64,000 nucleotides of DNA from Desulfoscipio gibsoniae DSM 7213 (GTDB taxonomy: Bacteria; Bacillota; Desulfotomaculia; Desulfotomaculales; Desulfallaceae), in assembly GCF_000233715.2 (NCBI RefSeq), contig NC_021184.1:3930001-3994000 (forward strand), written 5' to 3'. This document shows, piece by piece, positions 28,516 to 55,280 of this stretch (position 1 is its first letter; every line of letters begins with the position of its first letter). The notes under the pieces were generated by a model that was not told where the DNA came from, searched no databases, and saw nothing but the letters and a program-made list of their open reading frames with translations. The translations under genes were made by a program, and so were the position numbers.

Positions 28516-29817
28516 TTAACCTTGGCATTTGGCAACGGCCTGCTCCAGGACATCCAATCCCCGGTCAAGCTGCTCATCGGTAATGGCAAGCGGGACCAGC
28601 GTTCTGATGACGTTGCTGAAAATGCCCGCTCCGATAACAATGACACCGTTTTTCATACAATATTTAGAGACGGCAGCCGCCTCGTCCTTGGCCGGTTCCT
28701 TGGTTTCACTGTTCTTGACCAGTTCCATGGCATTCATGGCACCCAGTCCGCGAACATCACCGATGACCGGATATTTCTCCTTCATTTCGAGCATGCGGGC
28801 GCGCGTTTTTTCACCAATCTCCCGGGCACGTTCCACCAGTTTTTCCTGCTGCATGTAGTCAATGGTGGCCAACGCGGCTGCGCAGGATACCGGGTTGCCA
28901 CCATAAGTACCGCCGATATGTCCCGGATCGGGAGCGTTCATAATTTCGGCCTTACCTACAACACCGCTGAGGGGCATACCTGAGGCAATCGATTTGGCCA
29001 TGGTCATCAGATCGGGTTCGAGTCCCCAGTGCTCGCAGGCGAACATCTTACCGGTCCGGCCAAAACCTGTTTGAACTTCGTCAGCGATCAGAACAATACC
29101 GTGCTTATCGCAGATTTTCCTCAGACCCGGCAGGAATTCCGGTGGCGGAACGATGAAGCCGCCCTCACCCTGAATAGGTTCGATAATTATTGCTGCAACG
29201 TTCTCGGGAACAACTTCGGCGGCAAACATTCTGTCGAATTGCTCCAAGCAGTGCATGCCGCAGCCGGGATAAGTCGACCTGTAGTAGCAGCGGTAGCAAT
29301 AAGCAGAGGGGATTTTATAAATCTCGGGAGCGTAAGGACCAAACCCGAATTTGTAAGGTCTAACTTTACTGGTAAGGCTCATGGTCATTAAGGTGCGACC
29401 GTGAAACGCGCATTCAAAAGAGATTACACCGGTCCTTTTGGTATGGAACCTGGCAATTTTTACGGCGTTTTCCACGCACTCGGCACCACTGTTGACAAAC
29501 ATAGCTCTTTTTTCATAACTACCCGGTGAGATTTCAATTAGCTTTTCTGCCAGATCAAGATATGGCTCGTACATGGTAACCATAAAACATGTATGCAGTA
29601 GTTTTTCCGCCTGCTCCTTAATAGCAGCAACTACGGGTGGGGGGCAGTGCCCGGCATTGAGAGTGCCGATACCGGCGTAAAAGTCAATATATTCGTTGCC
29701 TTCCACGTCAATTATGGTCGCTCCCCTGGCCTCCTTAACAAAAATATTGGTAGAATTGGAGATACCACGGGCCACCAGGCTGTTTTTTCTTGCCAGAAGC
29801 TCTTCATTTCTTCCCAT
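28516..29817 (-). CDS. Class III aminotransferase (4-aminobutyrate/omega-amine type), copy 1
   Basis: 433 residues, full length, with AAAGGAGG before the ATG. The signature LIADEVQTGFGRTGKMFACE is at about 240, followed by LMTMAKSIASGMPLSGVVG with the PLP lysine. Cysteine-rich YCYRCYYRSTYPGCGMHCLE at about 175-195 is unusual and shared with the second copy. It would convert a primary amine or omega-amino acid to an aldehyde. It lies upstream of the molybdenum hydroxylase and downstream of the broken tungsten oxidoreductase. It is closely related to 47905-49206. It ends with TAA. Confidence 0.88.
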   Translation of the reverse strand: MGRNEELLARKNSLVARGISNSTNIFVKEARGATIIDVEGNEYIDFYAGIGTLNAGHCPPPVVAAIKEQAEKLLHTCFMVTMYEPYLDLAEKLIEISPGSYEKRAMFVNSGAECVENAVKIARFHTKRTGVISFECAFHGRTLMTMSLTSKVRPYKFGFGPYAPEIYKIPSAYCYRCYYRSTYPGCGMHCLEQFDRMFAAEVVPENVAAIIIEPIQGEGGFIVPPPEFLPGLRKICDKHGIVLIADEVQTGFGRTGKMFACEHWGLEPDLMTMAKSIASGMPLSGVVGKAEIMNAPDPGHIGGTYGGNPVSCAAALATIDYMQQEKLVERAREIGEKTRARMLEMKEKYPVIGDVRGLGAMNAMELVKNSETKEPAKDEAAAVSKYCMKNGVIVIGAGIFSNVIRTLVPLAITDEQLDRGLDVLEQAVAKCQG

Positions 29818-31551: not shown

Positions 31552-32199
31552 TTACTTCAACGCTAAAAGTTCCAGAGCCTTTTCAACGGCGTCAGCGGCA
31601 TCTTCTGCATACGCATCTGCGCCGATTTTTTCTGCCCAACGCTGGGTAACGGGCGCACCGCCAACCATTGTTTTAAACCTATCTCTAAGATTACGGGCCC
31701 GCAGCTCGTCTTCCAGTTTCTTCTGGGCCATAATGGTGGTAGTTAGTAAAGCACTGGTGCCGATAATATCGGCATTTACTTCCAGAGCCTTTTCTATGAT
31801 TTTATCAGTTGAAACATCCCGCCCAAGATCAATAACCTCGATGCCCTGGGTTTTTAGGAGGGAAACAACGATGCCTTTTCCAATATCATGGGCATCTCCT
31901 TCAACTGTCGCTATTAAAAAGGTGCCTTTTTTGGTGGACCCGCCTTTTTCAGCAATAGCCTCTTCCAATATTCCCGTTGCAGCCTTCATAGTTTCGGCAG
32001 CCAGTATTAACTGGGGAAGAAAAACCTCACCTGTTCCGAAACGCTCACCCACTTCCCTTATTCCAACGCTAAAGCCTTCGTTTAGCATTGTTACAGGATC
32101 CACCCCGGCTTCAACTGCCTTTTTAGCAACTTCGGTTGCAGCTTCACGGTTATAATCTAATATAGAATCTATCGCTTCTTTTATTAATTCCTGACTCAA
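31552..32199 (-). CDS. mtbC: Dimethylamine corrinoid protein MtbC
   Basis: 215 residues. An N-terminal four-helix cap domain (about 1-90) is followed by a B12-binding Rossmann domain. The cobalt-ligating DxHxxG motif is seen in VEGDAHDIGKGIV at about 120-132, and MVGGAPVTQRWAEKIGADAY near the C-terminus. It accepts the methyl group from dimethylamine via MtbB and passes it on. It begins 35 bases after the mtbB stop and is co-transcribed with it. Remnants of paralogues lie at 50412-50640 and 53565-53810. It ends with TAA. Confidence 0.93.
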   Translation of the reverse strand: MSQELIKEAIDSILDYNREAATEVAKKAVEAGVDPVTMLNEGFSVGIREVGERFGTGEVFLPQLILAAETMKAATGILEEAIAEKGGSTKKGTFLIATVEGDAHDIGKGIVVSLLKTQGIEVIDLGRDVSTDKIIEKALEVNADIIGTSALLTTTIMAQKKLEDELRARNLRDRFKTMVGGAPVTQRWAEKIGADAYAEDAADAVEKALELLALK

Positions 32200-32234: not shown

Positions 32235-33620
32235 TTATAAGCCTGCTTTGGACTTGAACCTGTTAACGGAATTGATTTCAATATCTAGCAGTTTGGCAAT
32301 CCGCATCTTGGCTTCCATACCTATGGCAGCCCCAGGACGGGCCAAAACATGCCCTATGTTCAATTCCTCTCTCAGTTCTTTCATTAAGGCCTCATCAGAA
32401 AGATCGAATAAAGATACTCTCAACTTACTGGCCACATATTTTTTGGCTTCCCTGATTTTTTTACCCTTGGCGGTAACACGTGCTACCAGATCTCCGGCAG
32501 TACGGACTCCACCCATCCCGGAAGCCATTTCGTGACCGAAAGCCATGGCGAAAGTATCCCCGTGGCCAATCTATAACCCGTCAGCTTTTCCGATTTCAAC
32601 CAGGGCCTTTGATGCCCTGGACATGGCGTCCATAGGGCAGGTATTGGTAAGGGGGATTCCCCCTACCCCCATCCCTGCATTGGGGTGAATAGGAATGCTT
32701 GCCGCTTCAGCACAGGCTTTGGTAAATGTTACTGCCCTGGCGAGGTTCCACGGAAAAGATTTACTGCTGTTAGTGTTGATAACAGGTCCAAAGATGGTTA
32801 CCCCGGCTTTTTCAGCAATTTTGACCTGCTGGTGTGGGTATAAACCGGCCAGTCTCTGGCCGTCGTAGGTTAATTCTCCATGCATGCCAAGGACAAATTC
32901 GCCCGCCATGCCCATTTCAATTTCCATATCGGGAAACTTGTTTTTCAAGTATTCCACCGCCTTTAGGGCAGCCAGGAAATCGGCATCACCAGAAGCCCCG
33001 ACGGAGTCAAAGTTCATACCGTCAGCTCCGCCTTCATACATGATTTCTGAAACATATATCATATCCTTTGTTGCATGCTTCGTAGCTTCTTCCTGAGCTT
33101 CCTGGGCCTCTTTAATTTTGGCCATTGGCAGCAACTCAGCCCAGTTTTCAATAGGTCCATCTGGTTTGGTATATAAGCCAACATTAGACATAGCTCCATA
33201 TAAGACCGGAATGATAGTGTTTAATTGAACCTGTTCCATTAACTGCCTTTCCTCATGGGCAATAGCTTTTACAGGCTTATAACTGTAATCTATATGAGCA
33301 AGCTCCATGGAATCAGAGGCAAAAGCCCGCTCATGGGCAAGAATAGTTGCAAGCCTGTCGACGGGAACCCCTCCCCTGATTCCAAATTTCAGGGTCCCTG
33401 CGTCAAAACTATGGGTAACCTCATTACCGCGTTCAACACTAACCACCTTATTGGGGTCGGTCATAATCTCATAAAGCCGCTCCATGTCTTCTGCTGTTAG
33501 CTCTGGCACTTTGCCGCGTTTTACAGCTTCTTGCATGCCAGCTTCCAAATCGGCCCTGACTTCGGCTTCCGACATCCAGATACCAGAGCCATCCCCCATA
33601 CGGGTGAAAATTTTACTCAT
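32235..33620 (-). CDS. mtbB: Dimethylamine methyltransferase MtbB, contains pyrrolysine (TAG codon 350)
   Basis: 461 residues when TAG at 32571-32573 is read as pyrrolysine. The frame before it ends EIGKADGL and the frame after continues IGHGDTFAMAFGHEMASG, both in register, as in archaeal MtbB where Pyl lies at the equivalent place (residue 356 of 467 in Methanosarcina barkeri, from memory). It removes a methyl group from dimethylamine and puts it on MtbC. The ATG has AAGGAG upstream. A sigma-54 promoter lies 57 bases upstream of the start, with three palindromic putative activator sites farther up. The real stop is TAA at 32235-32237. The pyl genes in the same window support decoding. Confidence 0.96.
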
Positions 33621-33676: not shown

Positions 33677-33692
33677 AGCAATTCCCATGCCA
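33677..33692 (-). promoter_or_regulatory. Sigma-54 promoter of mtbB-mtbC
   Basis: On the minus strand it reads TGGCATGGGAATTGCT, with GG and GC at exact -24/-12 spacing. Expected transcription start is about 33665. Confidence 0.88.
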
Positions 33693-33763: not shown

Positions 33764-33881
33764 AATGAAATTTTTCATCAACTCAAAAAAGTTTTGAATT
33801 TAAGAAATTGTCTGATACTTAGAGCCATACTAAGGCTCGTAATTGATGATTTTTATCATTGTACCAATGAGGATTTTCATT
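33764..33881. promoter_or_regulatory. Three palindromic putative activator sites upstream of mtbB
   Basis: Sites at 33764-33779 (AATGAAATTTTTCATC), 33845-33860 (GATGATTTTTATCATT) and 33866-33881 (AATGAGGATTTTCATT) follow AATGA-N6-TCATT with at most one change. They lie 70-200 bases upstream of the -24/-12 promoter, as expected for a sigma-54 activator. Confidence 0.7.
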
Positions 33882-40004: not shown

Positions 40005-40017
40005 GGCACAAAACGTA

Positions 40018-41821: not shown

Positions 41822-43573
41822 TTATTTGTACTTCTTCAGCAATTTAACAATTGTGGACTGATCAACTTCTAATACTTTAGCAGCTTTATAAGTTGATTTG
41901 TATATTTCATAAGCCGTCTTTACAAGTTGTTCTTCTAACTCTCTTTTTGCTTGTTTAAGGGGAATCAGATCGGTACAAATTACTTTTTTAGACGTAGCTT
42001 TAATCTCAAGAAAATTTTCTACTGTATTTATTTTAACAATATCAGACTCACTAATCACTATGGCTCTCTCCATGACATGTTCTAATTCACGTACATTACC
42101 AGGCCAATTATAACTATAAAAAATATCTATTAATCCAGGTTCAATCATCTTATTCATTCCGTATTTCTGGTTAAACTTTTTAAGAAAAAAATCAACAAGA
42201 ACCGGGATATCTTCACGTCTTTCCCTCAGGGGAGGAATAATTAAAGGAATAACATTCAGGCGGTAATATAAATCCTTTCTAAAGGTTCCTTCTTCTACCA
42301 TTTCCGGCAAACTTCTATTCGTCGCAGCTATAACTCTAGTATTTATTTTAATTTTTTTTGTACCACCAACCTTGCAAATTTCCCTGTCCTGCAAAAATTC
42401 TAACAACTTAACCTGGATCATTAGCGGAAATTCTCCAATTTCATCTAAAAAAAGAGTACCATTATTAGCTAGTTCAATCTTTCCGAGCTTTCCACCTTTA
42501 GTAGCACCTGTGAAAGCACCACTTTCATAACCAAATAGTTCAGATTCAATCAAGTTCTCCGGAATCAGGCCACAATTGATTTTAATAAACGGATGTTTAC
42601 GTCTTGCGCTTAAGGCATGAATTGCTTTCGTGATAACTTCTTTTCCCACACCTGACTCACCTTGGATTAAAACCGTTAAATCAAGACCTGCAACCTTAGC
42701 AATCGTCTCTTTAATATAATGCATTTCTTTGCTTTTGTATATAAAGTTAACAGATGAAAGGATCTCTTCTCTTAACGCATTGATTTCACTGGTTTTCCTC
42801 ATAATTTCATTATCTCGTTCTTCTAATTTCAACTGTAGTTTTGTAAGTTCTTCGAGATCCTTTGATGTGCTGATAACCCTGACAATTTCTCCCTCAGCAT
42901 TAAAAACAGGAACAGCTGTACCTATTACCTTTTTTCCCGATTTCATCTGTTGAATCATATTTACTTTTTTCTTCTGATGAAGAACAGGCATCGTAATACT
43001 GGAAGAATAATACCCTTCTCTCTCTAATTCTGTAACGTGCCTGCCTACTGCTTCACTGTTTTTCAAACCACAAATGCGTTCGGCAGCAGGGTTAAGACGG
43101 ATAATATAACCATTTTGGTCTGAAACAAATATTTCTTCATCAAGGTTCTCAAAAATTTTTTCATACTCTAAAAGTGTTTCTTTAATGTCCTGATTGTAGT
43201 CCAAAAACGATTCAATTAATTGTTTAATTTTTGACAGATCATCAATAATGCCTGTAATAGATTTTGATTCATCAATTAATACAATTACTTCTGCATCAAT
43301 ACTTTGCAAATCTATAAACTCAATATCTTGTAAATACACTGCAAATTGGATAGAAGGAGTCATGTTATCTATATTAATTTGGGAACAATCTATATTCTTT
43401 AAATAATCTCTGCAAAGGGCGGAAACATTAAACACCCTATTGACTAACCCATTATTTGTTAAAACGATATATCGAATATTTTCCGCTAGCATATCCTCAT
43501 CTATATTAATTAAATTCCCAGTTTCTTGCAAAACAATAAATTCCTTTCCAGCAATATCATAAGGCATAAGCAT
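41822..43573 (-). CDS. Sigma-54 activator with PAS sensor, intact core
   Basis: 583 residues from the ATG at 43571-43573, which has GGTGG seven bases upstream. An unassigned N-terminal region (about 1-130) is followed by a PAS domain (about 135-250, EKIFENLDEEIFVSDQNGYI), then the AAA+ domain with normal GESGVGKE, a canonical GAFTGA loop (YESGAFTGATKGGK) and GTLFLDEIGEFP. A Fis-type helix-turn-helix (AAKVLEVDQSTIVKLLKKY) ends it. It starts just downstream of tRNA-Pyl, so it is the best candidate for activating the -24/-12 promoters of mtbB, the pylBC cluster and ald through the AATGA-N6-TCATT sites (inference). It ends with TAA. Confidence 0.92.
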   Translation of the reverse strand: MLMPYDIAGKEFIVLQETGNLINIDEDMLAENIRYIVLTNNGLVNRVFNVSALCRDYLKNIDCSQINIDNMTPSIQFAVYLQDIEFIDLQSIDAEVIVLIDESKSITGIIDDLSKIKQLIESFLDYNQDIKETLLEYEKIFENLDEEIFVSDQNGYIIRLNPAAERICGLKNSEAVGRHVTELEREGYYSSSITMPVLHQKKKVNMIQQMKSGKKVIGTAVPVFNAEGEIVRVISTSKDLEELTKLQLKLEERDNEIMRKTSEINALREEILSSVNFIYKSKEMHYIKETIAKVAGLDLTVLIQGESGVGKEVITKAIHALSARRKHPFIKINCGLIPENLIESELFGYESGAFTGATKGGKLGKIELANNGTLFLDEIGEFPLMIQVKLLEFLQDREICKVGGTKKIKINTRVIAATNRSLPEMVEEGTFRKDLYYRLNVIPLIIPPLRERREDIPVLVDFFLKKFNQKYGMNKMIEPGLIDIFYSYNWPGNVRELEHVMERAIVISESDIVKINTVENFLEIKATSKKVICTDLIPLKQAKRELEEQLVKTAYEIYKSTYKAAKVLEVDQSTIVKLLKKYK

Positions 43574-43625
43574 ATAAATTCCACCCACTAGTTTACTTTT
43601 AGACCATTTTGTTAGTAGAAGGATT

Positions 43626-43697
43626 TGGCGGGGAGTCCGGGAGTTACACCCGGCTGCATAGATTTAGAGTCTATGTGATCCTTCCGATCAACCCCCC
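43626..43697 (-). tRNA. pylT: tRNA-Pyl (anticodon CUA, amber suppressor)
   Basis: 72 nucleotides including encoded CCA. The acceptor stem is GGGGGGU with ACUCCCC. The anticodon stem has six base pairs (CAUAGA/UCUAUG) around the loop CUCUAAA, giving anticodon CUA, and the D region is very small. These are hallmarks of tRNA-Pyl, and the sequence closely resembles the Desulfitobacterium pylT as I recall it. It lies 16 bases downstream of pylD and upstream of a sigma-54 regulator, so it is probably processed from the pylSc-pylD transcript. Confidence 0.97.
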
Positions 43698-43713
43698 GTA
43701 ATATTAAAAGTTC

Positions 43714-44517
43714 TTATTTAAGAACCATTGCCAACATTGTAGCAACTCCTATTTGAAGTGGATCATGTACAAGGCGTGAACTGTATTCTATTCTGCTTTC
43801 CGGTGTAAGTCCAAGGGGTACTCCTGGTGCTGCAATTGCAGCTCTCGGATGTAAATAGTTTCGATCCAAAAAATCTGCTTGGGGTGTAGCATCTAAAATG
43901 TATTGATAATTTGGCAGTATCTTATATAAGTCCCTTTCTACACAAACGCCTGATAAATCTATAACCTTAGACTGATCAGAATCGACTACTGTTACATAAG
44001 CGCCAAATTCCTTTAGAATATCAATAGCTGCGCGTCCTACGGGTCCAGCGCCAATAACTAAAGCTTTTTTACCTTTTAATCCTGAGGCAAGTCCGTAAAG
44101 TACTGAACCAAATCCTCGTCCTGTCGCTTCAGTATTATCAATCAGATGTCCATTAAACTTGTTAAATGCCAAGAAACGGTTATCATCAGCCATGAACAAT
44201 ACACTTGCACCCTGTTCTAGACCCTCTGCAAACCCTGCAACATCAGTCGCTTCCGAAATAAAAACTTCAAAGCCCAAATATTTGATAATAGCAGCGACAG
44301 ATTGTACGAAGCCACCTATCAAACCTTTTCCTGCAGTAATAGGGATGACTGCAATCGAGTGATCTTTTACTAATGTATCAAAATATGTAACTTTTATCCC
44401 AGCTGCCTTACAGGCAATTTCCTTTAAACTATATCCTAATTTAGACAGTAATTCATCTTCATAATCACGAAGTTCTGTCTCCAAACCAAGCAGGTTAGTT
44501 TCTGTAAGTCTGGTCAA
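43714..44517 (-). CDS. pylD: Pyrrolysine synthase PylD
   Basis: 267 residues from a TTG start with GGAGG eight bases upstream. It has a Rossmann NAD-binding segment, GKKALVIGAGPVGRAAIDIL, at about residues 150-170, and a PylD-typical N-terminal domain with LGYSLKEIACKAAG. It oxidises 3-methylornithyl-lysine, which then cyclises to pyrrolysine. It follows pylSc by 28 bases and precedes pylT. It ends with TAA. Confidence 0.95.
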   Translation of the reverse strand: MTRLTETNLLGLETELRDYEDELLSKLGYSLKEIACKAAGIKVTYFDTLVKDHSIAVIPITAGKGLIGGFVQSVAAIIKYLGFEVFISEATDVAGFAEGLEQGASVLFMADDNRFLAFNKFNGHLIDNTEATGRGFGSVLYGLASGLKGKKALVIGAGPVGRAAIDILKEFGAYVTVVDSDQSKVIDLSGVCVERDLYKILPNYQYILDATPQADFLDRNYLHPRAAIAAPGVPLGLTPESRIEYSSRLVHDPLQIGVATMLAMVLK

Positions 44518-44545
44518 ATTAGATTCCTCCTTATCTGGTTTAGAG

Positions 44546-45379
44546 CTAAATGTTCAAAAGGGAACCGTCTAAATAAGTTAAGCCACGCCCTACCCGGCGT
44601 ATATTACGGTGTCCCTGCAAGGTCATAGCTAACCGTTCCAAACCAAAGCCAATTCCGACCCACGGCTCAAATATACCCCATTGCTCATCCATCTTCAAAG
44701 GACCAAAAGCCCCGGAACCCAATTCCAAATCGTCGAAAACAACATCCACTGTGATTCCATATATTTCCGATTCAGTTTCTACAAATTCATAATTTTTTAC
44801 CCCAATTTCTTCCATAACCAATGAGCCTAATTCTTTTAAGCGTTCCGTTTGTTTACCCTTATCCACACCTAGTTCTACAAGGTTAAGCATAGTGAATTCA
44901 TTTAAATGCTGTGCCCCCTGCGATTCTTTTCGAAAGCATGGACCTATCTCAAAAATTCGCACAGGTTTGGACCATAATCTATCCAATATTTTTAAATAAT
45001 GATATAGATTAGGCGCCAGCATCGGACGCAAACATTTATTGTTATCCACCCAAAAAACCTGTTTATATAAAGGATGTTCGGGCGTAATTGTCATTTTGTG
45101 AAGCATTGCTTTAGGCAATATGATTGGAGTATTGACCTGAACAAATCCAGTTTTACAGAGTAAATTGGAAAGCTGGATTTCCAAACTGGAAAGCAAAGGA
45201 CGATGAATAACTTCTTTTAGTTCAAGTAAATGGTCTTTGTTCTTTTTGACCAGTTCTTTTTCGATTTTCTGAAACGTTTGGTCCCTCTTTTGCTTATCCT
45301 GAAATCTTAGGTCCAGAAGCTCAGATTTTCCATTTAATTCAATTAATTTTTGTTTCTGAGAAATGCTCCAATTGATCAA
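44546..45379 (-). CDS. pylSc: Pyrrolysyl-tRNA synthetase catalytic subunit PylSc
   Basis: 277 residues from a TTG start behind GGAGGAG. This is only the class II catalytic domain, as in bacteria; the tRNA-binding part is encoded separately as pylSn at 50736. Motif 2 is visible in EIGPCFRKESQGAQHLNEFT with the following MLNLVELG, and motif 3 in GIGFGLERLAMTLQGH. The amino-acid pocket segment MLAPNLYHYLKILDRLW is conserved. It charges tRNA-Pyl with pyrrolysine. Its own gene ends with TAG followed by CTC TAA, so misreading would add only two residues. Confidence 0.96.
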   Translation of the reverse strand: MINWSISQKQKLIELNGKSELLDLRFQDKQKRDQTFQKIEKELVKKNKDHLLELKEVIHRPLLSSLEIQLSNLLCKTGFVQVNTPIILPKAMLHKMTITPEHPLYKQVFWVDNNKCLRPMLAPNLYHYLKILDRLWSKPVRIFEIGPCFRKESQGAQHLNEFTMLNLVELGVDKGKQTERLKELGSLVMEEIGVKNYEFVETESEIYGITVDVVFDDLELGSGAFGPLKMDEQWGIFEPWVGIGFGLERLAMTLQGHRNIRRVGRGLTYLDGSLLNI

Positions 45380-45529
45380 AAAAACTCCTCCAAGTCCAAG
45401 TTAGAGATCTGGCTATATAATAAATTTACGACATTTTTGCTCTTTTATTAGTTAAAGTATTTCGAGCATTTGATTATAAATCCTTTAATAAAAATTTTAT
45501 TTGTTTTTTATTTTCAGAATAATTCAAAT

Positions 45530-45670
45530 TGATGCTCAATGTCCGCATTGATAACATCAGCACCAAAAACATTCTGGGCATTTGTGGCGGACGCTGTCGC
45601 CACTAATTCACCTGTAGTCATATCAATCAAAGAACTAACCACTGTAAACTGTACCAATATCTACGGCTAA
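45530..45670 (-). pseudogene. Remnant of a RACo-like corrinoid activator
   Basis: LAVDIGTV, then DMTTGELVATASATNAQNVF and GADVINADIEHQF in neighbouring frames. This is the start of an ASKHA activator domain like that at 12651-14288. The rest of 45380-46006 is AT-rich without a gene. Confidence 0.55.
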
Positions 45671-46006
45671 GCAAAATATTTTTGGGTTGTATTGCCTACT
45701 TCAACAGCTAATAGCATGTTTTCCCTTCTTCTCTTAGCAAATGAGGCATGAAAACTAGAGCAATAACTTTAATCTGGAGAGATTCATTATACAGACCTCG
45801 CAAAAACTGGATAGCGTCTGTAAACTAATTTTCAAGTTATGGCTTTTCTGGTAGACACAGTTGCACCTGGTTCAATTATAGTAACATCAATTTTGTTTTG
45901 AAAAGATCCACTTTCTTTAATAAATATGGGGTTTTTGCAGCAAAATCACTATATGCAAAGCCCAAAATTGTAATAATTCCGAGGCTTTTGATATTTTATT
46001 AGAAAA

Positions 46007-47740
46007 TTAATACCAGCCGCGCAACTGATAATAGTCATCAATCATACGGTTAAGCTCGTCTAGAGTTATTCCGTTCTGACCGTCGTTAACCTTTTCATTA
46101 AACAACCTGTCAGGCAGTGTATCATCTTGCCTGTTAAGACCCTGCTGCTGGTTAAAGGTGTGGGTCGCATTTATTATTCTGTCGGCAACCGCCCACAGTT
46201 CTTCTTTGGTGAACTCCAGGCCGGTTATAGCCTTGTTTAGCTCGATTAAGGTCTCCCAGGTGATTAAATCCCTGAAAAACACACATAGTATTTGAGTGTT
46301 GAAAATGGTCAGCCTGTTTTCAAAATCGATAAACAGCTCGGCTTTGCCCTCGGTAGTGGCAGGGTCAATCATACCGGCCAACTCGGGTTTGTAGAATGTA
46401 GCCCTTAAATGACAAGCGCCTCTGGCCGAGGTGGCGTAAGCAAGCCCCATTCCTTTGAGCACCCTGGGGTCATACCCGGGAGGCTCCATTCCTTTGACAT
46501 GAATGGCTATATCCTGCAGGCCCAACTTTGGGGCTGCCTCCTTAATGCCAAGGGATAAAGTTTCACCCAACCCGGTGCGCTGGGCCATTTGCATAATCAA
46601 TTCGGCAGCGGCCCCGGCATCTCCGTATCTGACCGGGGTATCGATTAGGCCGCGCTCATTACCTTCCATAACCAGTCCCACCAGGTTGCCGGCAGTAATT
46701 GTATCCATACCCAGCCGGTCACACAGGTCGTTAAGATATGCCACCTGATCCAGCCGGTTAATTGAACAAAGTCCCCCAAAGGCGTATATGGTTTCGTACT
46801 CGGGACCCTCAATTTCCAGGCCGGCATGTTCGCCCGAGTCAATAGATACATGCTTACCGCAGGCCATAAAGCAGTTGGGACAGGCAGTAGGCCTAACCTT
46901 ATACTGCTGCAAAAACGTGTCACCGCTCAGGCTCTCCCATTCGGGGTCAACCGCCCTGTTCCAGTACCGGTTGGGGAAAGCTTTGGCGCCGTTCATGATC
47001 TTAACCATAACCGTGGTGCCGTAATTACGGTAATTTTCGACCCCGGGGTTGCCCTTGCCAAGATCACGGATTTTTTTAACCACTTCTTTAAGCATGTCCG
47101 GGTCGGCAACTTCCGCTTTGGCGCAGCCGTGAAACACTACCGCTTTAAGTTTTTTTGAGCCCATCAGCGCGCCCATGCCGGCACGGCCGGCGGATCTCCA
47201 CCGGTTATTTTCGATACAGGTAAACCGGACCAGGTTCTCGCCGGCAGGACCGATTACCAGCGCCTGGGCACCCTGAATGTCAACCTGCTTCAGCACTTCT
47301 TCCTCGGCTGCATATGTGTCCAGCCCCCATAGGCCGGAGGCGTCGTGAAACAATACGCTCGAATCGCTTATTTCCACCATTACCGGCTTATCTGCAGCGC
47401 CTTCAAAGATAATGGCGTCATAGCCGGTGCGGCGCATAACCGGAGCCACTCTGCCTCCGGCATAGGATTCAGCATAGCCGCCGGTAAGCGGCGATTTGCC
47501 AAACACACCGTAACGGCTGCTGCCTACCATTGCTGTGTCGGTAGACGGGCCGGTGGTGAATATGAGTTTGTTGTCTGGGGAAAGTGGATCGATGCCAGGC
47601 TTAATGTTCTGCAGCAGCAGATAGGAACCCAAGCCTTTACCACCTAGATATTGCTTGAAAACTCTGTCCGGAATAGTCTCTTGTACATAACTTTGCCGGG
47701 TCAGGTCTATTCGCAACAGTTTTCCAAAAAATCCTTTCAT
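46007..47740 (-). CDS. Tungsten-dependent aldehyde ferredoxin oxidoreductase
   Basis: 577 residues. The N-terminal tungstopterin domain has FKQYLGGKGLGSYLLLQNIK and PDNKLIFTTGPSTDTAMVGS. The 4Fe-4S cysteines ACPNCFMACGKHV lie at about 290-302, and MEPPGYDPRVLKGMGLAYAT at about 420. Enzymes of this family oxidise aldehydes to acids, reducing ferredoxin. It follows an aminotransferase gene (47905-49206), suggesting an amine-aldehyde-acid route. A truncated paralogue lies at 30645-31290. It is slightly shorter than typical members (~600 residues). It ends with TAA. Confidence 0.92.
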   Translation of the reverse strand: MKGFFGKLLRIDLTRQSYVQETIPDRVFKQYLGGKGLGSYLLLQNIKPGIDPLSPDNKLIFTTGPSTDTAMVGSSRYGVFGKSPLTGGYAESYAGGRVAPVMRRTGYDAIIFEGAADKPVMVEISDSSVLFHDASGLWGLDTYAAEEEVLKQVDIQGAQALVIGPAGENLVRFTCIENNRWRSAGRAGMGALMGSKKLKAVVFHGCAKAEVADPDMLKEVVKKIRDLGKGNPGVENYRNYGTTVMVKIMNGAKAFPNRYWNRAVDPEWESLSGDTFLQQYKVRPTACPNCFMACGKHVSIDSGEHAGLEIEGPEYETIYAFGGLCSINRLDQVAYLNDLCDRLGMDTITAGNLVGLVMEGNERGLIDTPVRYGDAGAAAELIMQMAQRTGLGETLSLGIKEAAPKLGLQDIAIHVKGMEPPGYDPRVLKGMGLAYATSARGACHLRATFYKPELAGMIDPATTEGKAELFIDFENRLTIFNTQILCVFFRDLITWETLIELNKAITGLEFTKEELWAVADRIINATHTFNQQQGLNRQDDTLPDRLFNEKVNDGQNGITLDELNRMIDDYYQLRGWY

Positions 47741-47904
47741 ACTCTACCTCCCCGGAGATTAAATTTGGATCTTTTTGTTTGGTAGCGGGCGGACAGAGTC
47801 TGCCCCTACAGGGTGCTGGCCGGAATGTTGCCTGGTTTCGTTAATCGTTTAAGGGCAGACAGCTAACAGTCTCTAGCCCTGCATAGTTAGTTAATTCAAC
47901 GTGC

Positions 47905-49206
47905 TTATTTTGAGGCGTGGGCTATAGCCTGCTCCAGAACGTCCAGACCCCGCTCCAGCTGCTCGTCGGTAATAACCAGAGGAATCAGGGTGCAGATTAC
48001 GTTGCTGAAGATACCCGCGCTGATGACAATAACACCGTTGTCGACGCAGTACTTGGTAACGGCCGCCGTCGCTTCCTTGGCCGGCTCCTTGGTTTCCCTG
48101 GCTTTAACCAGCTCGATGGCGTTCATGGCGCCAAGACCACGCACATCACCGATGATGGGGTATTTCTCTTTCATTTCCAGCATCTTTTCCCTGGTCTTAT
48201 TACCGATTACATTGGCGCGTTCCATCAGCTTCTCCTGCTGAATGTAGTCAATGGTGGCCAAGGCTGCCGCGCAGGATACCGGATTGCCACCGTAAGTTCC
48301 GCCGATGTGTCCCGGGTCGGGGGCGTTCATGATCTCAGCCTTACCGACTACACCACTAAGAGGCATGCCGACGGCAATTGACTTGGCGACTGTCATTAGG
48401 TCGGGTTCCAAGCCCCAGTGTTCGCAGGCAAACATTTTACCGGTCCGGGCAAAGCCTGTTTGAACTTCGTCGGCAATTAATACGATACCGTGCTTATCGC
48501 AGATTTTTCTCAGTCCGGGCATAAATTCCGGCGGCGGAACAATAAAGCCACCTTCACCCTGAACAGGTTCGATGATCATTGCCGCAATGTTTTCTGGTGC
48601 TACTTCGGCGGCAAACATTCTGTCGAATTGTTCAAGGCAGTGCATGCCACAGCCCGGGTAGGTTGATCTGTAGTAGCAGCGGTAGCAATAAGCGGAGGGA
48701 ATTTTATAAACTTCGGGAGCGTAGGGGCCAAAGCCGAATTTGTAGGGCTTAACCTTACTGGTCAGGCTCATAGTCATCAAGGTGCGGCCGTGAAACGCGC
48801 ATTCAAAAGAGATAACCCCGGTTCTTTTGGTATGGAACCTGGATATTTTAACGGCGTTTTCAACACATTCGGCACCGCTGTTGACGAACATGGCTCTTTT
48901 TTCATAGCTGCCCGGTGAGATTTCAATTAGCTTTTCTGCCAGATCTAAATAAGGCTCGTACATGGTAACCATAAAGCAAGTATGCAAAAGTTTTTCCGCC
49001 TGCTCCTTGATAGCAGCAACTACAGGCGGGGGACAGTGACCAGCGTTGAGTGTGCCAATACCGGCGTAAAAGTCAATATATTCGTTACCTTCCACATCAA
49101 TTATAGTTGCACCCCTGGCCTCCTTAGCAAAAATTCAGGTGGAATTAGAGATGCCGCGGGCCACCAGCGCATTCTTTCTTGCCAGAAGCTCTTCAGTTCT
49201 TCCCAT
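47905..49206 (-). pseudogene. Class III aminotransferase, copy 2, with in-frame TGA at codon 24
   Basis: It is near-identical to the gene at 28516-29817 over its whole length, with ATG at 49204-49206, LIADEVQTGFARTGKMFACE and MTVAKSIAVGMPLSGVVG. Codon 24 is TGA (49135-49137) where copy 1 has AAT (GISNST-N-IF). Translation could restart only at a downstream GTG or other site, such as the valine before EGNEYIDFYAGIGTLNAG, giving a 396-residue protein that still contains the whole catalytic core but lacks the N-terminal arm. It is either a recent pseudogene, a shortened active gene or a sequence error. Confidence 0.8.
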
Positions 49207-49412
49207 TTTTTTAAAACTCCTTTTTTTAGAGTTAGGGTGGATTTGGGGTTAGACCCCAGTAACTAATGCTGTTATTTGTTAGTGTTAATGTGTTTGCGTG
49301 TTCGGGAGTGATACAGTTACTTTTGGCTTTTGGTAGCTATGAAAAAATTCTACTGCACCAAAAGACAAGTAATTTCACCCAGAAGAACGATGTTTTGCAA
49401 TATATTTAAAAC

Positions 49413-49433
49413 AGGGGCTTTTAAAATGCCCCT
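49413..49433. terminator. Hairpin terminator
   Basis: AGGGGC and GCCCCT pair around a nine-base loop, with T-rich sequence on both sides. It lies 110 bases beyond the methyltransferase stop. Confidence 0.6.
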
Positions 49434-49544
49434 ATATCTTTTTAACCATCCATATAGCATGTTGATTTTATACCTAATCCCTTGCAACAGAATCTACTGA
49501 TCCTTTAGAAGCTTCTACCCCGTGTTATAGCTTCAATTTTTACT

Positions 49545-50345
49545 TTAGGATTCATATAATCCATTGCGATGTGCAGTTAAGTAGTTGGTACAATAAGTAT
49601 CTTTACCTAAAAGGGTCTGACCGGCATGAACAAATCCCATCATACTTTTATCCAAAGGATTAAGAATGTAACTGTCCATACCTACTGTCATAGTTTGAAC
49701 CATAAACAACTGATTAAGAATTTTTCGATTTGGAAGCCCGAATGAAACATTACTCAAGCCACATACTTTGTGAACATTGGGATATTTTTCGGAAATTAGT
49801 CTGACCGTTTCAAGAACTTCAAGTCCTGCCTTATCACCGGTACTTACAGGTTTCACTAGCGGATCAAAGTATATATCATCCTCAGGAACACCTGCCTTAG
49901 TTAAATTTTCATACAGATTAACGGCCACTTTCATTCTATCCTCAGCCGTTTCAGGCATGCCACTGTCATCCATACACAAAGCAACAACTTTAGTCTTATA
50001 TTTCAAGACCATAGGGAAAATTTGTTCATAACGTTCCTTTTCACCAGTAATCGAATTAACAAGGGGCTGCCCGTAGCGAGCTAATGCCAATCCAGCTTCA
50101 ATAGCTAAAGGATTTGGACTGTCAATACATAGTGGTACTTGTACAGCCTCCTGGACAGTATTAACAAGCCATTCCATGGTTTCAACCTCATCAAAAACCA
50201 TTGTTCCGCAGTTCACATCAATATAGTTAGCCCCTGCCGCAACTTCATCTTGTGCAATTTTCTTAATATAATCAGCATCTTTTTTTTCAACTGCTTCATT
50301 AATGATCTTTCTACTCGTATTAATAAGCTCTCCTATGATCAACAT
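49545..50345 (-). CDS. Methylcorrinoid:tetrahydrofolate methyltransferase (MtgA/AcsE-like)
   Basis: 266 residues forming a pterin-binding TIM barrel. It has MLIIGELINTSRKIINEAVE at the start, NYIDVNCGTMVFDEVETMEW, and VCGLSNVSFGLPNRKILNQL near the end (pterin-binding asparagine region). It likely moves methyl groups between corrinoid protein and tetrahydrofolate, as MtgA does in betaine-using Desulfitobacterium. Here it would take the methyl group from MtbC into the folate pool. A corrinoid-protein remnant lies just upstream. It ends with TAA. Confidence 0.88.
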   Translation of the reverse strand: MLIIGELINTSRKIINEAVEKKDADYIKKIAQDEVAAGANYIDVNCGTMVFDEVETMEWLVNTVQEAVQVPLCIDSPNPLAIEAGLALARYGQPLVNSITGEKERYEQIFPMVLKYKTKVVALCMDDSGMPETAEDRMKVAVNLYENLTKAGVPEDDIYFDPLVKPVSTGDKAGLEVLETVRLISEKYPNVHKVCGLSNVSFGLPNRKILNQLFMVQTMTVGMDSYILNPLDKSMMGFVHAGQTLLGKDTYCTNYLTAHRNGLYES

Positions 50346-50411
50346 CTAATCCGCTCCTTTATTCCTTCTTCACTGAATTTATACTTGATGTTTATTCCAA
50401 CTAATTCTATA

Positions 50412-50640
50412 TCATAAGTCTTTAGCAGTTATTACACCAGAACAATACCCATCTGCACCGATTTCATCAGCAAAACTTTTGAAACGGGTGCCCCTCCAAC
50501 TAGACTTTCACCTAGTTCACGGAGTCCTTCTTCCTTAATTAATTCAATTGTATTTTCATCTTTAGCATTGCCGTCATTAAAACCACATTCCAACAATATC
50601 CGGTTTTTGATCTCTTATAGCTGGACAAATCCTTCAGGAG
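50412..50640 (-). pseudogene. Corrinoid-protein C-terminal remnant
   Basis: ENTIELIKEEGLRELGESLV then GGAPVS, and after a frameshift FADEIGADGYCSGVITAKDL-stop. This is the end of the B12-binding domain of an MtbC/MtgC-like protein. It precedes the folate methyltransferase gene. Confidence 0.7.
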
Positions 50641-50735
50641 AAATTCCGTATCTAAATTGATTACTTAAAAACCTGCACTTTATAAAATCATGTCAATTAC
50701 TGCTTGTGATAAACTATTCATAAATTCTTACCGGT

Positions 50736-51095
50736 TCATTTCATCAACTTTAAGCTTACTGACTGTTTTGAATAAAGCTGAGAACCATAATGCTGCTTAA
50801 AAAAGGTAGAGGAAAATTTATTAAGCTTCCAGTCAGGTATTTTGCAATCTTTGCAGGAACCAACAACCCATTTATTGCGAATCCAGCGTGCTGCTCTTCC
50901 ATTTTTTGAGTTATGCACTAATATCTTTTTTTCGCAATGTGTTGTGATATAAGCATACTCACCCTTTGTTTCCATCTCTTTAATTCCGTGCAAAGTTCCA
51001 TTTCTTGAAGGCCAAAGTTTTATCTTAGCTAACAAAAGTAAAAAATCCACTCGTTTCCGGTAATATTTTTTTTTGGCTTGTTTTTTATCTGTCAT
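50736..51095 (-). CDS. pylSn: Pyrrolysyl-tRNA synthetase tRNA-binding subunit PylSn
   Basis: 119 residues from the ATG at 51093-51095, chosen for its GGAGG eight bases upstream; an ATG 27 bases earlier is the alternative. It has the PylSn pattern KIKLWPSRNGTLHGIKEMET, CEKKILVHNSKNGRAARWIR and KDCKIPDWKLNKFSS. It binds tRNA-Pyl and helps PylSc. It lies about 5.4 kb from pylSc, next to pylC and pylB. It is basic, consistent with RNA binding. It ends with TGA. Confidence 0.93.
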   Translation of the reverse strand: MTDKKQAKKKYYRKRVDFLLLLAKIKLWPSRNGTLHGIKEMETKGEYAYITTHCEKKILVHNSKNGRAARWIRNKWVVGSCKDCKIPDWKLNKFSSTFFKQHYGSQLYSKQSVSLKLMK

Positions 51096-51242
51096 ACCAG
51101 TTTCCTCCATAATTATACCCATGGGGAACTCTGATCCCTCCCAAAGTTAGTAAATCCTACCGGGTAGTCTGCAGGATTACATCATTCTTAGGATTGTGTT
51201 CAGCTATAAAGATTGTTCTGGGATTTAAACTGAAATTTGAAA

Positions 51243-52409
51243 TTAATTGTTCGGAAAGGGATCAAGATATAAATTCAATTGACAATGCTTCATAATGTTA
51301 GCAATAACATCACAACGTTTTTGCCAAGCTTCCCAACGTGTATTGCCAGTAATAATCAACGTAGCTACCCATTGCCTAATCCCAACCGAATAATTGGTCA
51401 GCGCTTCATCTGCGCCAAAAAAGTCTTCCGTTAAATATAAAGGACCGGATCCACCCATAATATGCTCACCTATAGTTTCGATCCGGTCATCTCTGACCCA
51501 AACATGTTCGTAAATCACAGCGTACTCATTACCAGGATCAACAACATTCACGATTGGGGTTTGCTGTTTAACCCAAACATCATATAAACTCTCCAACATG
51601 TTAATACCAGTTGATTTATAAACTACAGTAGGTGTCTGGCTCGGTAAACGGGCATCAATTTCCAGTACTTTAAGTACTCCATGGTGTTCAATAACCTCCA
51701 CATCCATAATTCCTTTTAGATTAAGCAGGCGGGCGAGCCGTGATGCCATTTTCCGAAAGTTTTTTTCAAGAGTGTCATCTAATACCGTTGGGGCAGAAAC
51801 TCTTTTGCAATCATATCCTGCATCCATTGCCAAATCAGTCACCTGAAAAGTCACGGGAATTCCGTTAAAAGCCATAACTTCCAGTGAATAGGACGGACCC
51901 TCCAGAAATTCTTGAATAATCCAGCTTTCGTTATAATCCTTTTGCGTGAGCAAATGCTCAAATTCAAATGGATCATAAACTTTTTTTACCCCTTGACTAC
52001 CACTAAGCGAAGATGGTTTTATAATTACCGGCAGTTCACAATTTGGCCAGTAGGTAGGAAATGGAATGTGATATTTTGCAAAAAGTTCATCAGATTTTTT
52101 TTTAGATGACGAAATCTCATAAGCCTCACTGTTAAAGGCTACTGGACACCCTGTACGTAATGTTATCTGGTTTAATAGTGATAAAACCGTTTGATCTTCT
52201 ATAGCTGGAATAACTAAATCTACTTTCTGACAAATATCTGACAGTACATCCGAGTTATGCAAAATATCGACGGATAAAAATTGATCACATAACTCACTTG
52301 CTGGGGAGTTCCTGTTTTTATCAAGTACAATAACTTCCCATCCTGCTTTATGTGCCAGATAGGTTGCCTCAATTCCTTGTAACTTCCCGCCAACAACTGC
52401 AATTTTCAT
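51243..52409 (-). CDS. pylC: 3-methylornithine-lysine ligase PylC
   Basis: 388 residues from the ATG at 52407-52409, one base after the pylB stop. It is an ATP-grasp enzyme, with MKIAVVGGKLQGIEATYLAH at the start, PVIIKPSSLSGSQGVKKVYD in the ATP-binding region and VLEIDARLPSQTPTVVYKST near the metal site. It joins 3-methylornithine to lysine using ATP, the second step of pyrrolysine synthesis. It is tightly coupled to pylB. It ends with TAA. Confidence 0.95.
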   Translation of the reverse strand: MKIAVVGGKLQGIEATYLAHKAGWEVIVLDKNRNSPASELCDQFLSVDILHNSDVLSDICQKVDLVIPAIEDQTVLSLLNQITLRTGCPVAFNSEAYEISSSKKKSDELFAKYHIPFPTYWPNCELPVIIKPSSLSGSQGVKKVYDPFEFEHLLTQKDYNESWIIQEFLEGPSYSLEVMAFNGIPVTFQVTDLAMDAGYDCKRVSAPTVLDDTLEKNFRKMASRLARLLNLKGIMDVEVIEHHGVLKVLEIDARLPSQTPTVVYKSTGINMLESLYDVWVKQQTPIVNVVDPGNEYAVIYEHVWVRDDRIETIGEHIMGGSGPLYLTEDFFGADEALTNYSVGIRQWVATLIITGNTRWEAWQKRCDVIANIMKHCQLNLYLDPFPNN

Positions 52410-52410
52410 C

Positions 52411-53520
52411 TCAGCCACCAATTTCGCTCATGCAATGAATCGTTAAACTGCTCCGTTTGTTCAATACCCAATTTTTATATTCTTTTTTTGATGCAGCTTT
52501 TAAATCAAGATCCTTCAATACAGGTAATATCCCTTTAACTGTACGTGCTCCTTGGTTAATATCTTTAGTACTTTGGGCAACGCCGGCAAGACCCATGTAC
52601 GGAGGAATTAACGAAGTAATAACATTGGCTCCTGCATTTAATCTGGCCTGTAGACCTTCTATACCGTCAACATCTAATGAAGCCGGAATTAAGCGGTCAT
52701 GGAACAGCAAACGCAATATTGCAATCACTTTTAGTTCAACCTGACGGTTTGGTGTAGGCCACTCACTCATGGCACTTCCATCTTGAGGTACAAAACTCAT
52801 AACTCTGACCTGTTGAGCCCCAAGCATATTCATCTTTTCTAGAGAAGTCGCTATATCTGACCAAGACTCTCCGACTCCGACCATGATTCCCTCTTCAGCC
52901 AGCATTCCCAATTCAAGTGCCGTTTTTTTACTATGATAACGCAGGTCATAACTTTGGCTCAGTCGAAGTTTAGTAAAAAGGTTCCTGTTATGAGTTTCTT
53001 GATAGCAAGCATACCAATCAGCTCCTGCTTTCATTACCTCTTGTAACATTTTTTCTGAAGCAACTCCAGGCGATATCATCACATGCAAATTGGTTAACCG
53101 TTTAACTTCTCGGACAATATGGGCTAACTCTGCAACTCCTTTCCGATCCCTAAAGTAAGGATCTTCACCCATGGTGAGATCTATCAGGTGTACTCCTGAA
53201 TTAGCTAAACTCACTGCGGCTTGCAAAATTTCTTCCGGGGATTTCCGGTATCGATGAGGAAGAGAATTTGTACGCCGATAAAAGCAGAAGGAGCAATCAT
53301 TACGACACCAAGTTGAAAAATATATAAACCCATATAAAAATATTTTGTTAGAAAAATGTTTTTCTCTAATCAACCGGGCAACCCGGAAAAGTTCCTTTAA
53401 GTCTTGCTTCCTAGATAACTTAAGTAAAAAAATAACTTCTTCCCTGGACAATACAAAACCGTTTAAAGCCTTATCCAGAATATCGTTTAAACTAATTTGG
53501 CACCTAATTGTTTTGATCAC
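52411..53520 (-). CDS. pylB: 3-methylornithine synthase PylB (radical SAM)
   Basis: 369 residues from a GTG start with AGGATG upstream. The radical SAM cluster motif CRNDCSFCFY is at about residues 72-81, and the family region HLIDLTMGEDPYFRDRKGVA follows. The end has LIPASLDVDGIEGLQARLNA and VITSLIPPYMGLAGVAQST. It converts lysine to 3-methylornithine. It comes after a truncated mtbC and is the first intact gene behind the sigma-54 promoter at 53872-53887. It ends with TGA. Confidence 0.96.
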   Translation of the reverse strand: MIKTIRCQISLNDILDKALNGFVLSREEVIFLLKLSRKQDLKELFRVARLIREKHFSNKIFLYGFIYFSTWCRNDCSFCFYRRTNSLPHRYRKSPEEILQAAVSLANSGVHLIDLTMGEDPYFRDRKGVAELAHIVREVKRLTNLHVMISPGVASEKMLQEVMKAGADWYACYQETHNRNLFTKLRLSQSYDLRYHSKKTALELGMLAEEGIMVGVGESWSDIATSLEKMNMLGAQQVRVMSFVPQDGSAMSEWPTPNRQVELKVIAILRLLFHDRLIPASLDVDGIEGLQARLNAGANVITSLIPPYMGLAGVAQSTKDINQGARTVKGILPVLKDLDLKAASKKEYKNWVLNKRSSLTIHCMSEIGG

Positions 53521-53564: not shown

Positions 53565-53810
53565 TTATTTATTCAGTAATCTTAACGCCTTGGTTACTGC
53601 TTCGGCAGCATCTTCAGCATACGCATCGGCCCCAATACGGTCAGCCCAGCGTTGAGTTGCAGGAGCTCCGCCTACCATTGTTTTAAACCTGTCTTTAAGA
53701 CCATTCTTCTTCAGTTCATCTTCAAGGTTCTTTTGATATATCAATGTCGTAGTTAACAAGGCACTGGTTCCGATAATATCTGCATTAACTTCGAAAGCCT
53801 TTTCAATAAT
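53565..53810 (-). pseudogene. Truncated mtbC (C-terminal ~80 codons)
   Basis: IIEKAFEVNADIIGTSALLT to RFKTMVGGAPATQRWADRIG closely matches the end of MtbC at 31552. The N-terminal cap and the DxHxxG motif are missing and an in-frame TAA precedes it. It sits between the promoter and pylB. Confidence 0.85.
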
Positions 53811-53871: not shown

Positions 53872-53887
53872 AGCAAAAACTATGCCA
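53872..53887 (-). promoter_or_regulatory. Sigma-54 promoter of the mtbC'-pylB-pylC-pylSn cluster
   Basis: On the minus strand it reads TGGCATAGTTTTTGCT, an exact -24/-12 match. It lies about 350 bases upstream of pylB. Confidence 0.88.
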
Positions 53888-53938: not shown

Positions 53939-54054
53939 AATGAAAGTTTTCATCATTTAGCCAAACGGAACTTTTAGAATTCTCTGACTTGTCTTAATGT
54001 AGGTCAGAATCTACCAATGAAATACATCATTATCTTCTAATGAAATATTTCATT
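53939..54054. promoter_or_regulatory. Three palindromic putative activator sites upstream of the pyl cluster
   Basis: Sites at 53939-53954 (AATGAAAGTTTTCATC), 54016-54031 (AATGAAATACATCATT) and 54039-54054 (AATGAAATATTTCATT) follow AATGA-N6-TCATT. They lie 50-180 bases upstream of the -24/-12 promoter and also upstream of the divergent URO-D-like gene. Confidence 0.7.
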
Positions 54055-54413
54055 GTTTCTTTTCACAAAAAAGCCTTTCAGAGATAGGCCCCAAAAGGCA
54101 TAAATGTATAATTTTTCTTTTAATAAGACCCTTCTTCTTAGGAAAATTGGAGGTAATTTATCAATTCATCTACTTTTTATATTGCCGGAGCCCGCATCTC
54201 AAGAAGATTATGTGGTCGACGACCAACCACCTTTTTTTTGGTCTCCGCATTTTTATTACGTATGGCCTCTGAAATTGCTTTGCGGCTGGCATAGTTTGTG
54301 AAATTAGTTATATTTTGAGTTATCTAAAACAGTGGTTGACTTATAAAAAAATGTTTGGTTATAATGCACTAAGGAAACCATATATATTTTTAGTTTCGAT
54401 AGAAGGTCTTAAA
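54055..54413. other. Region between activator sites and URO-D-like gene
   Basis: A small hairpin (GCCTTT/AAAGGC, 54073-54099) occurs. On the plus strand TGGCATAGTTTGTGAA at about 54284-54299 has a good -24 element but lacks the GC of the -12 element, so it may be a damaged sigma-54 promoter for the gene to its right. The 65-codon frame at 54104-54301 looks non-coding. Confidence 0.45.
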
Positions 54414-55280
54414 GTGAAAAATTTACTGTGCTTGTTAAAAGAAAAAAAGACATCCAGAGTTCTCCGTGGTGAACTCTGGATATCAGGTACCGTATTAGAT
54501 GAACTGGGTCTTGAAAGAAAGCAGGATTCTATAGTTACTATCAGCCGCGAGATTGATGCTAACCTATGCTTTTTAAGCTACACCAATCCAATTCAGCAGC
54601 TTTCGGTTGAGTCAAAGGAAATGGAAATTAACATTAAAAAAGCCCACGCTTTAGAATTGTTTTGCGGAGTCACTGTAGATGGTCCCTTTGAACGTACGGT
54701 TAAAGAACATGGTTTTGAAGAAACTATGAAACTGTTTTTTAATGAAAAACACCTGAATAGTCAACTTGAAAAACACACAGCAGCAACTGCTTTTGAACTG
54801 GCCGCAGCTGAAAAAGCGGGTGCCGACCTGTTGATTCTATGTGATGATATAGCTTATACCCAGGGGCTATATTTTTCGCCTCAAAAGTTTAAAAGCAATA
54901 TATTGCCGCTTTACCAAAAACTGAGGAATTTAGTAAAAGAAACAGTTATGGGTTTTCATTCTGATGGCAACGTTGAATCAATATTAAATTTACTGCTAGA
55001 CCATGGGTATACTATGTTTTCCCTGGAGCCGGAAGCTATGGATTTAGTCACTTTAAGCCGAGTTCTTCCATCAAACATCGCTCTGATGTCCGGTATAAAA
55101 TCAGATTGGTTAATGAATTCGGGCTTTAATCTTCACCAAAATAAAAAAGAAATATTGATTTATATCGAAGAACTGTCTAAAGGTTGCGGTTTGATTCTGT
55201 CTTCTTTATGCGGTCTTAGCAATACTGCAAGTCTAAATCAATTAAAGCTTTTATACCGCTTGTTAAACGAAAACTGCTGA
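54414..55280 (+). CDS. URO-D-family methyltransferase-like protein
   Basis: 288 residues from the GTG at 54414, with AGAAGG eight bases upstream; the frame is open further upstream. It has the uroporphyrinogen decarboxylase/MtaA-MtbA fold pattern: RVLRGELWISGTVLDELGLE at the start, ADLLILCDDIAYTQGLYFSP in the middle, and VMGFHSDGNVESILNLLLDH, then GLILSSLCGLSN. In methylotrophic systems such proteins move methyl groups from corrinoid proteins. It is shorter than MtbA (~340), and the zinc-site His is present (HSDG). It is transcribed divergently from the pylB cluster. Its exact role is uncertain. It ends with TGA. Confidence 0.72.
   Translation: MKNLLCLLKEKKTSRVLRGELWISGTVLDELGLERKQDSIVTISREIDANLCFLSYTNPIQQLSVESKEMEINIKKAHALELFCGVTVDGPFERTVKEHGFEETMKLFFNEKHLNSQLEKHTAATAFELAAAEKAGADLLILCDDIAYTQGLYFSPQKFKSNILPLYQKLRNLVKETVMGFHSDGNVESILNLLLDHGYTMFSLEPEAMDLVTLSRVLPSNIALMSGIKSDWLMNSGFNLHQNKKEILIYIEELSKGCGLILSSLCGLSNTASLNQLKLLYRLLNENC

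Follow-up and report, generated by a model that had tools for sequence, protein, structure and literature searches.

A pyrrolysine locus with separated synthetase genes and a putative sigma-54 regulon in Desulfoscipio gibsoniae

Bacterial loci for pyrrolysine (Pyl) comprise six genes, encode a two-part pyrrolysyl-tRNA synthetase (PylRS) and are linked to methylamine methyltransferase genes, and their general order is given as pylTScBCDSn or pylSnScBCD (PMC3941956). Desulfoscipio gibsoniae was named among the Pyl organisms already in 2013 (PMC3639795), and the paper on its genome, in which Pyl is not mentioned, lists a single possible dimethylamine methyltransferase (Desgi_3904) besides a cobalamin protein and reports mtbA as absent (PMC4148979). 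The pyl genes of D. gibsoniae DSM 7213 were analysed here in a stretch of 64,000 nucleotides of NC_021184.1 (positions 3,930,001 to 3,994,000; hereafter the window, in whose coordinates all positions are given). The locus shares the six genes, the two-part synthetase and the linkage with bacterial pyl loci in general, and differs from them in the order pylB-pylC-pylSn, insert, pylSc-pylD-pylT. Judged from the sequence, the pyrrolysine system is complete and probably working. The reading favoured here, which as a whole we regard as fairly likely, is that of a complete, working split-synthetase system in which a compact operon would have received a 5.4-kb cassette and one sigma-54 regulon would serve both halves.

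Composition and gene order of the pyl locus

The six pyl genes occupy positions 43626-53520, all on the minus strand:

52411..53520, minus strand, pylB, methylornithine synthase (TIGR03910, 486 bits, cut-off 348)
51243..52421, minus strand, pylC, 3-methylornithine--L-lysine ligase (TIGR03909, 458 bits, cut-off 248)
50736..51122, minus strand, pylSn, tRNA-binding small subunit of PylRS (TIGR03912, 123 bits, cut-off 51)
44546..45379, minus strand, pylSc, catalytic subunit of PylRS (TIGR02367, 338 bits, cut-off 178)
43714..44517, minus strand, pylD, 3-methylornithyl-lysine dehydrogenase (TIGR03911, 246 bits, cut-off 150)
43626..43697, minus strand, pylT, tRNA-Pyl(CUA) (ARAGORN)

The protein calls are matches to NCBIfam equivalog models, all scoring well over their cut-offs, and together with the ARAGORN result they bear out a first-pass annotation of this DNA, according to which all six components are present in the two clusters pylB-pylC-pylSn and pylSc-pylD-pylT with the synthetase halves 5.4 kb apart. 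Measured between aligned ends, the distance from pylSn to pylSc is 5,359 bp. Within the blocks pylB and pylC overlap, and the spacing is 120 bp between pylC and pylSn, 28 bp between pylSc and pylD and 16 bp between pylD and pylT. The tRNA-Pyl, the sole tRNA that ARAGORN found in the window, has a CUA anticodon, an anticodon stem of 6 bp and a very short D-loop region. PylSc matches 3DSQ and 2ZNI, solved chains of bacterial PylSc, over almost its whole length. PylSn keeps the GxxH histidine and the zinc-domain CxxC. It lacks an equivalent, at the aligned position, of the DH histidine seen in the Methanosarcina PylSn structure, as do other bacterial PylSn, with which it has a T-H/F-C motif in common. 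With PylRS encoded as two separate polypeptides (TIGR03912 and TIGR02367 on different genes), PylB, PylC and PylD over curated cut-offs, a tRNA-Pyl(CUA) and at least one methyltransferase gene with an in-frame UAG, the locus belongs to the PylSn+PylSc class. A second complete locus elsewhere in the genome (4,855,529 bp, single contig), a possibility raised in the same annotation, was not found and is excluded because PylSc, PylSn and the PylC N-domain each gave one match, additional copies of pylB, pylD and pylT not having been searched for.

Known bacterial pyl loci had also been taken to be contiguous, and this does not hold. Gene order was scored in 38 other loci with both synthetase genes, several of which share one genome or are close kin and are not independent. 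The gap between pylSc and pylSn was 4 bp at the least and 10,159 bp at the most, being wider than in the window in two loci only (L087, 10.2 kb; L090, 8.1 kb), and L150 and L151 carry the synthetase halves on opposite strands. The orders found include T-Sc-B-C-D-Sn, Sc-Sn-D-T-B-C, T-Sn-Sc-B-C-D, C-Sc-D-T-Sn-B and T-B-C-D-Sn-Sc. Gene order in bacterial pyl loci is thus very labile and shuffling is common, which rejects contiguity as a rule, and an uninterrupted order is not a required trait of bacterial pyl systems. The interrupted order of the window was absent from the 38 loci. Without the insert it does occur in relatives, as pylC-Sn-Sc-D-T in L121 and L148 (genome G383, of the same phylum) and as pylC-Sn-Sc-D in L147 (G189), so that only the uninterrupted form is shared among related genomes. 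These loci have a Sn-Sc gap of 115-163 bp with no cassette in between, L121 resembles the window further in a sigma-54 activator gene after pylT, and G383 and G189, together with the G166/G204 pair, show the highest PylSn and PylSc identities to the window. L087 (Desulfosporosinus nitroreducens) and L090 (Desulfosporosinus UBA8487) have, like the window, a corrinoid-protein gene, metabolic genes and mtgA between pylSc and pylSn, with a sigma-54 site before mtgA-pylB, but differ in their order T-Sc...mtgA-B(-C-D)-Sn and in the presence of further pyl loci in the same genomes; D. nitroreducens carries three (L087, L088 and L089), L089 being very divergent with long branches in all trees. An exceptional status of the split in D. 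gibsoniae is not supported, and it is a further example of how labile the cluster is. Since bacterial pyl order is labile and the uninterrupted order exists in relatives, the split in itself poses no special stoichiometry problem.

The putative sigma-54 regulon

The promoter elements and the candidate regulator are the following:

53872..53887, minus strand, sigma-54 (-24/-12) promoter, exact match TGGCATAGTTTTTGCT, reading towards pylB
33677..33692, minus strand, sigma-54 promoter, exact match TGGCATGGGAATTGCT, 57 bp before mtbB
54040..54053, no strand, palindrome ATGAAATATTTCAT, 153 bp upstream of the sigma-54 promoter of pyl, putative site for the activator
53940..53953, no strand, palindrome ATGAAANNTTTCAT, putative second site for the activator at the pyl promoter
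33765..33778, no strand, palindrome ATGAAANNTTTCAT, upstream of the mtbB promoter
41822..43588, minus strand, candidate regulator, a PAS/AAA+/HTH sigma-54 activator (Pfam Sigma54_activat, 230 bits) whose gene starts 37 bp after pylT

The sigma-54 consensus TGGCAYRNNNNTTGCW has 5 exact matches in the window against 0.10 expected from shuffles; exact matches only were used, the pattern with 2 mismatches being at chance level (36 vs 32). The pyl promoter at 53872-53887 lies upstream of an mtbC tail and pylB. A 14-bp palindrome, ATGAAA-N2-TTTCAT, precedes four of the five sigma-54 sites at a distance of 53-200 bp, with two copies at the pyl promoter, and two of the four palindrome-bearing promoters fall in a 98%-identical duplication of 430 bp and were counted once. 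Exact palindromes number seven in the genome, five of them in this 42-kb stretch, and the two beyond the island lack an exact sigma-54 site in the surrounding 3 kb. RpoN is encoded in the genome and the island holds two sigma-54 activator genes, so that the -24/-12 element, upstream palindromes, RpoN and AAA+ activator genes of a sigma-54 regulon are all present. The palindromes are probably bound by the PAS/AAA+ activator encoded after pylT. Desulfosporosinus UBA8487 encodes an ortholog of this activator (L133; 61% identity) whose DNA-binding helix is closely similar. Its gene, too, is part of an island of this type, and mtbB there likewise comes with an exact palindrome and a sigma-54 site. 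In four other loci (Desulfosporosinus, Sporomusa) pylB also has an exact sigma-54 site 93-167 bp ahead of it. The palindrome was not found at these four pylB promoters, where another activator with a different site may act because the palindrome is missing there. No paper containing both 'pyrrolysine' and 'sigma-54' was found in the literature searched.

Two further places in the window carry this combination. The duplicated 430-bp stretch with the mtbB promoter and palindrome (33634-34062) recurs at 23395-23824 close to a gene for an AmiS/UreI-type transporter (22471-22965), and the duplication may have brought this gene into the same regulon. A class III aminotransferase and an alanine dehydrogenase (9466-12100, the dehydrogenase at 10910-12034) lie behind an exact sigma-54 site with palindrome; the corresponding pair (71% and 78% identical) adjoins a sigma-54 activator in L133.

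According to the favoured reading both the pyl module and the mtbB module would be driven by a sigma-54 promoter with the same palindromic site and by the activator from the gene after pylT. A single regulon, and perhaps a single transcript, would coordinate the two synthetase halves, because the promoter, palindrome and activator set is shared and the minus strand showed no terminator-like site from pylB to pylT. Two independent pyl transcripts are a possible but rather doubtful alternative, in which pylSc would have its own promoter in a degraded ramA stretch before it and the halves would be controlled apart. A 10-of-12 sigma-70-like site at 45904-45875 (minus strand) is consistent with this, as are L087 of Desulfosporosinus, with separate sigma-54 sites for the pylT-pylSc block and the mtgA-pylB block, and L150 and L151, where halves on opposite strands necessarily make separate transcripts. 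However, sigma-70-like sites were at chance level here (38 found, 37.5 expected), for which the sigma-70 scan was not used, and there is no exact sigma-54 site between pylSn and pylT in the window. The first-pass annotation saw in the split a particular problem of balance between the two synthetase halves; with one inducible regulon and possibly one long transcript, as the sequence suggests, balanced production would need no new mechanism.

The insert, its sister module and their origin

Between pylSn and pylSc, and upstream of pylB, lie the following features:

53574..53810, minus strand, mtbC remnant upstream of pylB, covering the final third of the corrinoid protein (E 9e-32; 80% identical to intact mtbC)
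50420..50600, minus strand, degraded corrinoid-protein tail, approximate place, weak (E 0.016)
49545..50345, minus strand, mtgA-type methyl-tetrahydrofolate:corrinoid methyltransferase, intact (PRK07535/NF005719, 380 bits, cut-off 259)
47905..49224, minus strand, class III aminotransferase (4-aminobutyrate, GABA, transaminase type), second copy (interrupted by a TGA at 49137, with the frame open from 49095)
46007..47740, minus strand, aldehyde:ferredoxin oxidoreductase (AOR), tungsten type (Pfam AFOR_N, AFOR_C)
45526..45645, minus strand, degraded piece of RamA (corrinoid activator), weak, between AOR and pylSc (E 0.002)

Profile matches thus recover the folate methyltransferase, the aminotransferase, the tungsten oxidoreductase and the remnants that had been described between the clusters, and the pyl operon is interrupted by mtgA, aminotransferase, AOR and remnants. 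The remnants are of unequal strength, the mtbC tail being strong, and the corrinoid tail and the ramA piece weak and seen mainly in read-through frames. The aminotransferase was considered as a second Pyl gene read through TAG and rejected, its stop at 49137 being TGA. An mtbB remnant upstream of pylB is not claimed: a 20-residue echo appeared in self-comparison and tblastn gave no mtbB match.

The insert has a counterpart in a sister module at 28.5-33.6 kb:

32235..33620, minus strand, mtbB, dimethylamine-type methyltransferase with an in-frame TAG at codon 350 (PF09505, 652 bits; 1 TAG; PYLIS_2 match)
31555..32187, minus strand, mtbC, intact corrinoid protein
28516..29817, minus strand, aminotransferase, intact copy (84% DNA identity to 47927-49228)

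In the sister module mtbB (UAG), mtbC and the aminotransferase are intact, AOR is a fragment and mtgA a vestige (31504-31540) in which an internal deletion has left the first and last few residues. The module on the pyl side retains intact mtgA and AOR, and mtbC and the aminotransferase are broken there. Over both modules mtbB, mtbC, mtgA, aminotransferase and AOR are each intact at least once, and from its sequence the pyl locus is best described as one half of a duplicated methylamine island with reciprocal decay of the modules. A decaying pyl locus, out of use and with the split as a step of loss, appears improbable. The broken pieces nearby (mtbC tail, aminotransferase TGA, corrinoid and ramA remnants), the reported absence of mtbA (PMC4148979) and the lack of PylSc in other genomes of the genus would fit it, but all six pyl genes are full length, with families over cut-off and a normal tRNA-Pyl, mtbB has no interruption other than its TAG, mtbC and mtgA are both present in one undamaged copy, and the promoter motifs are kept.

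The favoured reading holds that a compact pylB-C-Sn-Sc-D-T operon received the 5.4-kb methyltransferase cassette between pylSn and pylSc, and that the cassette genes serve the same pathway as the Pyl-dependent methyltransferase. The island of Desulfosporosinus UBA8487 (L133 and L091) resembles the window in mtgA (82% identical, L091), alanine dehydrogenase (78%), the aminotransferase AT3 of the insert and a second aminotransferase (71% each), mtbC (69%), mtbB (68%), AOR (62%) and the sigma-54 activator, but its Pyl proteins are only 44-53% identical, its gene order is another and the stretch compared has no pylSc. G383 shows the reverse pattern, with mtgA 52% and PylSn 65-69% identical to the window. 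These differing affinities of insert and pyl genes speak for a pathway cassette having entered an operon that was compact before.

The pyl system itself was probably acquired horizontally, because PylSc is over cut-off in only 5 of 113 genomes of the order and in no other genome of the genus. Separate trees of PylB+C+Sn and of PylSc+D gave identical nearest relatives of the window (G166, G204 and G189), and approximately unbiased (AU) tests rejected its grouping with the four pyl carriers of its own order (p-AU 0.0003 and 4e-49 in the two trees), and with it vertical inheritance within the order. That the two clusters came from different donors and are adjacent by coincidence, as their physical separation and the mutual inversion of the B-C-Sn and Sc-D blocks in G204/G166, by which blocks can evidently move, might suggest, is very improbable and disfavoured by the same nearest relatives of both halves, the rejection of the own order's clade by both and the contiguity and unchanged order of the blocks in L121, L147 and L148.

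Several points weigh against an insertion and the ancestry sketched here. The remnants at either end of the insert are weak matches (E 0.016 and E 0.002), and direct repeats or a target-site footprint were not found at its ends, where only short imperfect repeats occur. The clade with G166, G204 and G189 is not rejected, yet lacks strong support, and the PylC, PylD and PylSn trees are weakly resolved near the window. The contigs of L121 and L148 end before pylB, which was not seen on the G383 contigs, and pylB and pylT of G189 lie about 290 kb from its remaining pyl genes. The comparison has no outgroup, leaving its direction unrooted, and the relatives may have lost the cassette.

Elsewhere in the window, hydantoinase/oxoprolinase A and B genes (15538-21876; the B gene without a start) are separated by three open reading frames that resemble an IS66-type element. 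A malic-enzyme gene in pieces (38563-41190) adjoins a transposase-like reading frame (39808-41190), and a group II intron D1-D4-7 match of 60 bits lies at 37569-37674 on the minus strand.

Pathway and control of code expansion

Among the three methylamine methyltransferase families mtbB was the only Pyl-dependent gene found, a genome-wide search of other UAG genes not having been made, and MttB and MtmB had no matches in the genome. MtbB occurs in 17 of the 398 genomes of the phylum sample, and among the matches listed all 32 MtbB have exactly one TAG. MtgA would hand the methyl group of the corrinoid protein on to tetrahydrofolate. The route would run from the amine to MtbB and MtbC and then through MtgA to methyl-tetrahydrofolate, with MtgA, as its family function suggests, in place of the missing MtbA. 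Two other genes touch on this route. A full-length RamA/RACo-type corrinoid activator (12651-14294) is the likely source of MtbC reactivation, and a URO-D/MtaA-like gene on the opposite strand (54315-55280), under the MtaA cut-off, might be a distant substitute for mtbA.

Because aminotransferases, alanine dehydrogenase and AOR recur in related islands, to which BCCT transporters (L127 of G166, L123 of G189) and MttB proteins (L127) are added, we speculate that the island demethylates an N-methylated omega-amino acid, followed by transamination and aldehyde oxidation. Tentatively, and at lower odds than the operon reading itself, Pyl use may be an inducible sigma-54 regulon in which the pylT-adjacent activator senses a methylated amine and switches on pyl and mtbB together. 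The substrate of MtbB would then be an N-methylated omega-amino acid or amine and not free dimethylamine, since omega-aminotransferases, alanine dehydrogenase and AOR are present in the island and a betaine/carnitine-type BCCT transporter and MttB in related ones.

Acetohalobium is reported to expand its genetic code only on certain carbon sources (Prat et al. 2012, as cited in later papers). For D. gibsoniae the regulatory reading is a more important result than the split itself. The promoter, the activator site and the candidate activator are placed to the base, and as the genome has a single pyl set and a single known target gene, control over the expansion of the code becomes directly testable in this organism.

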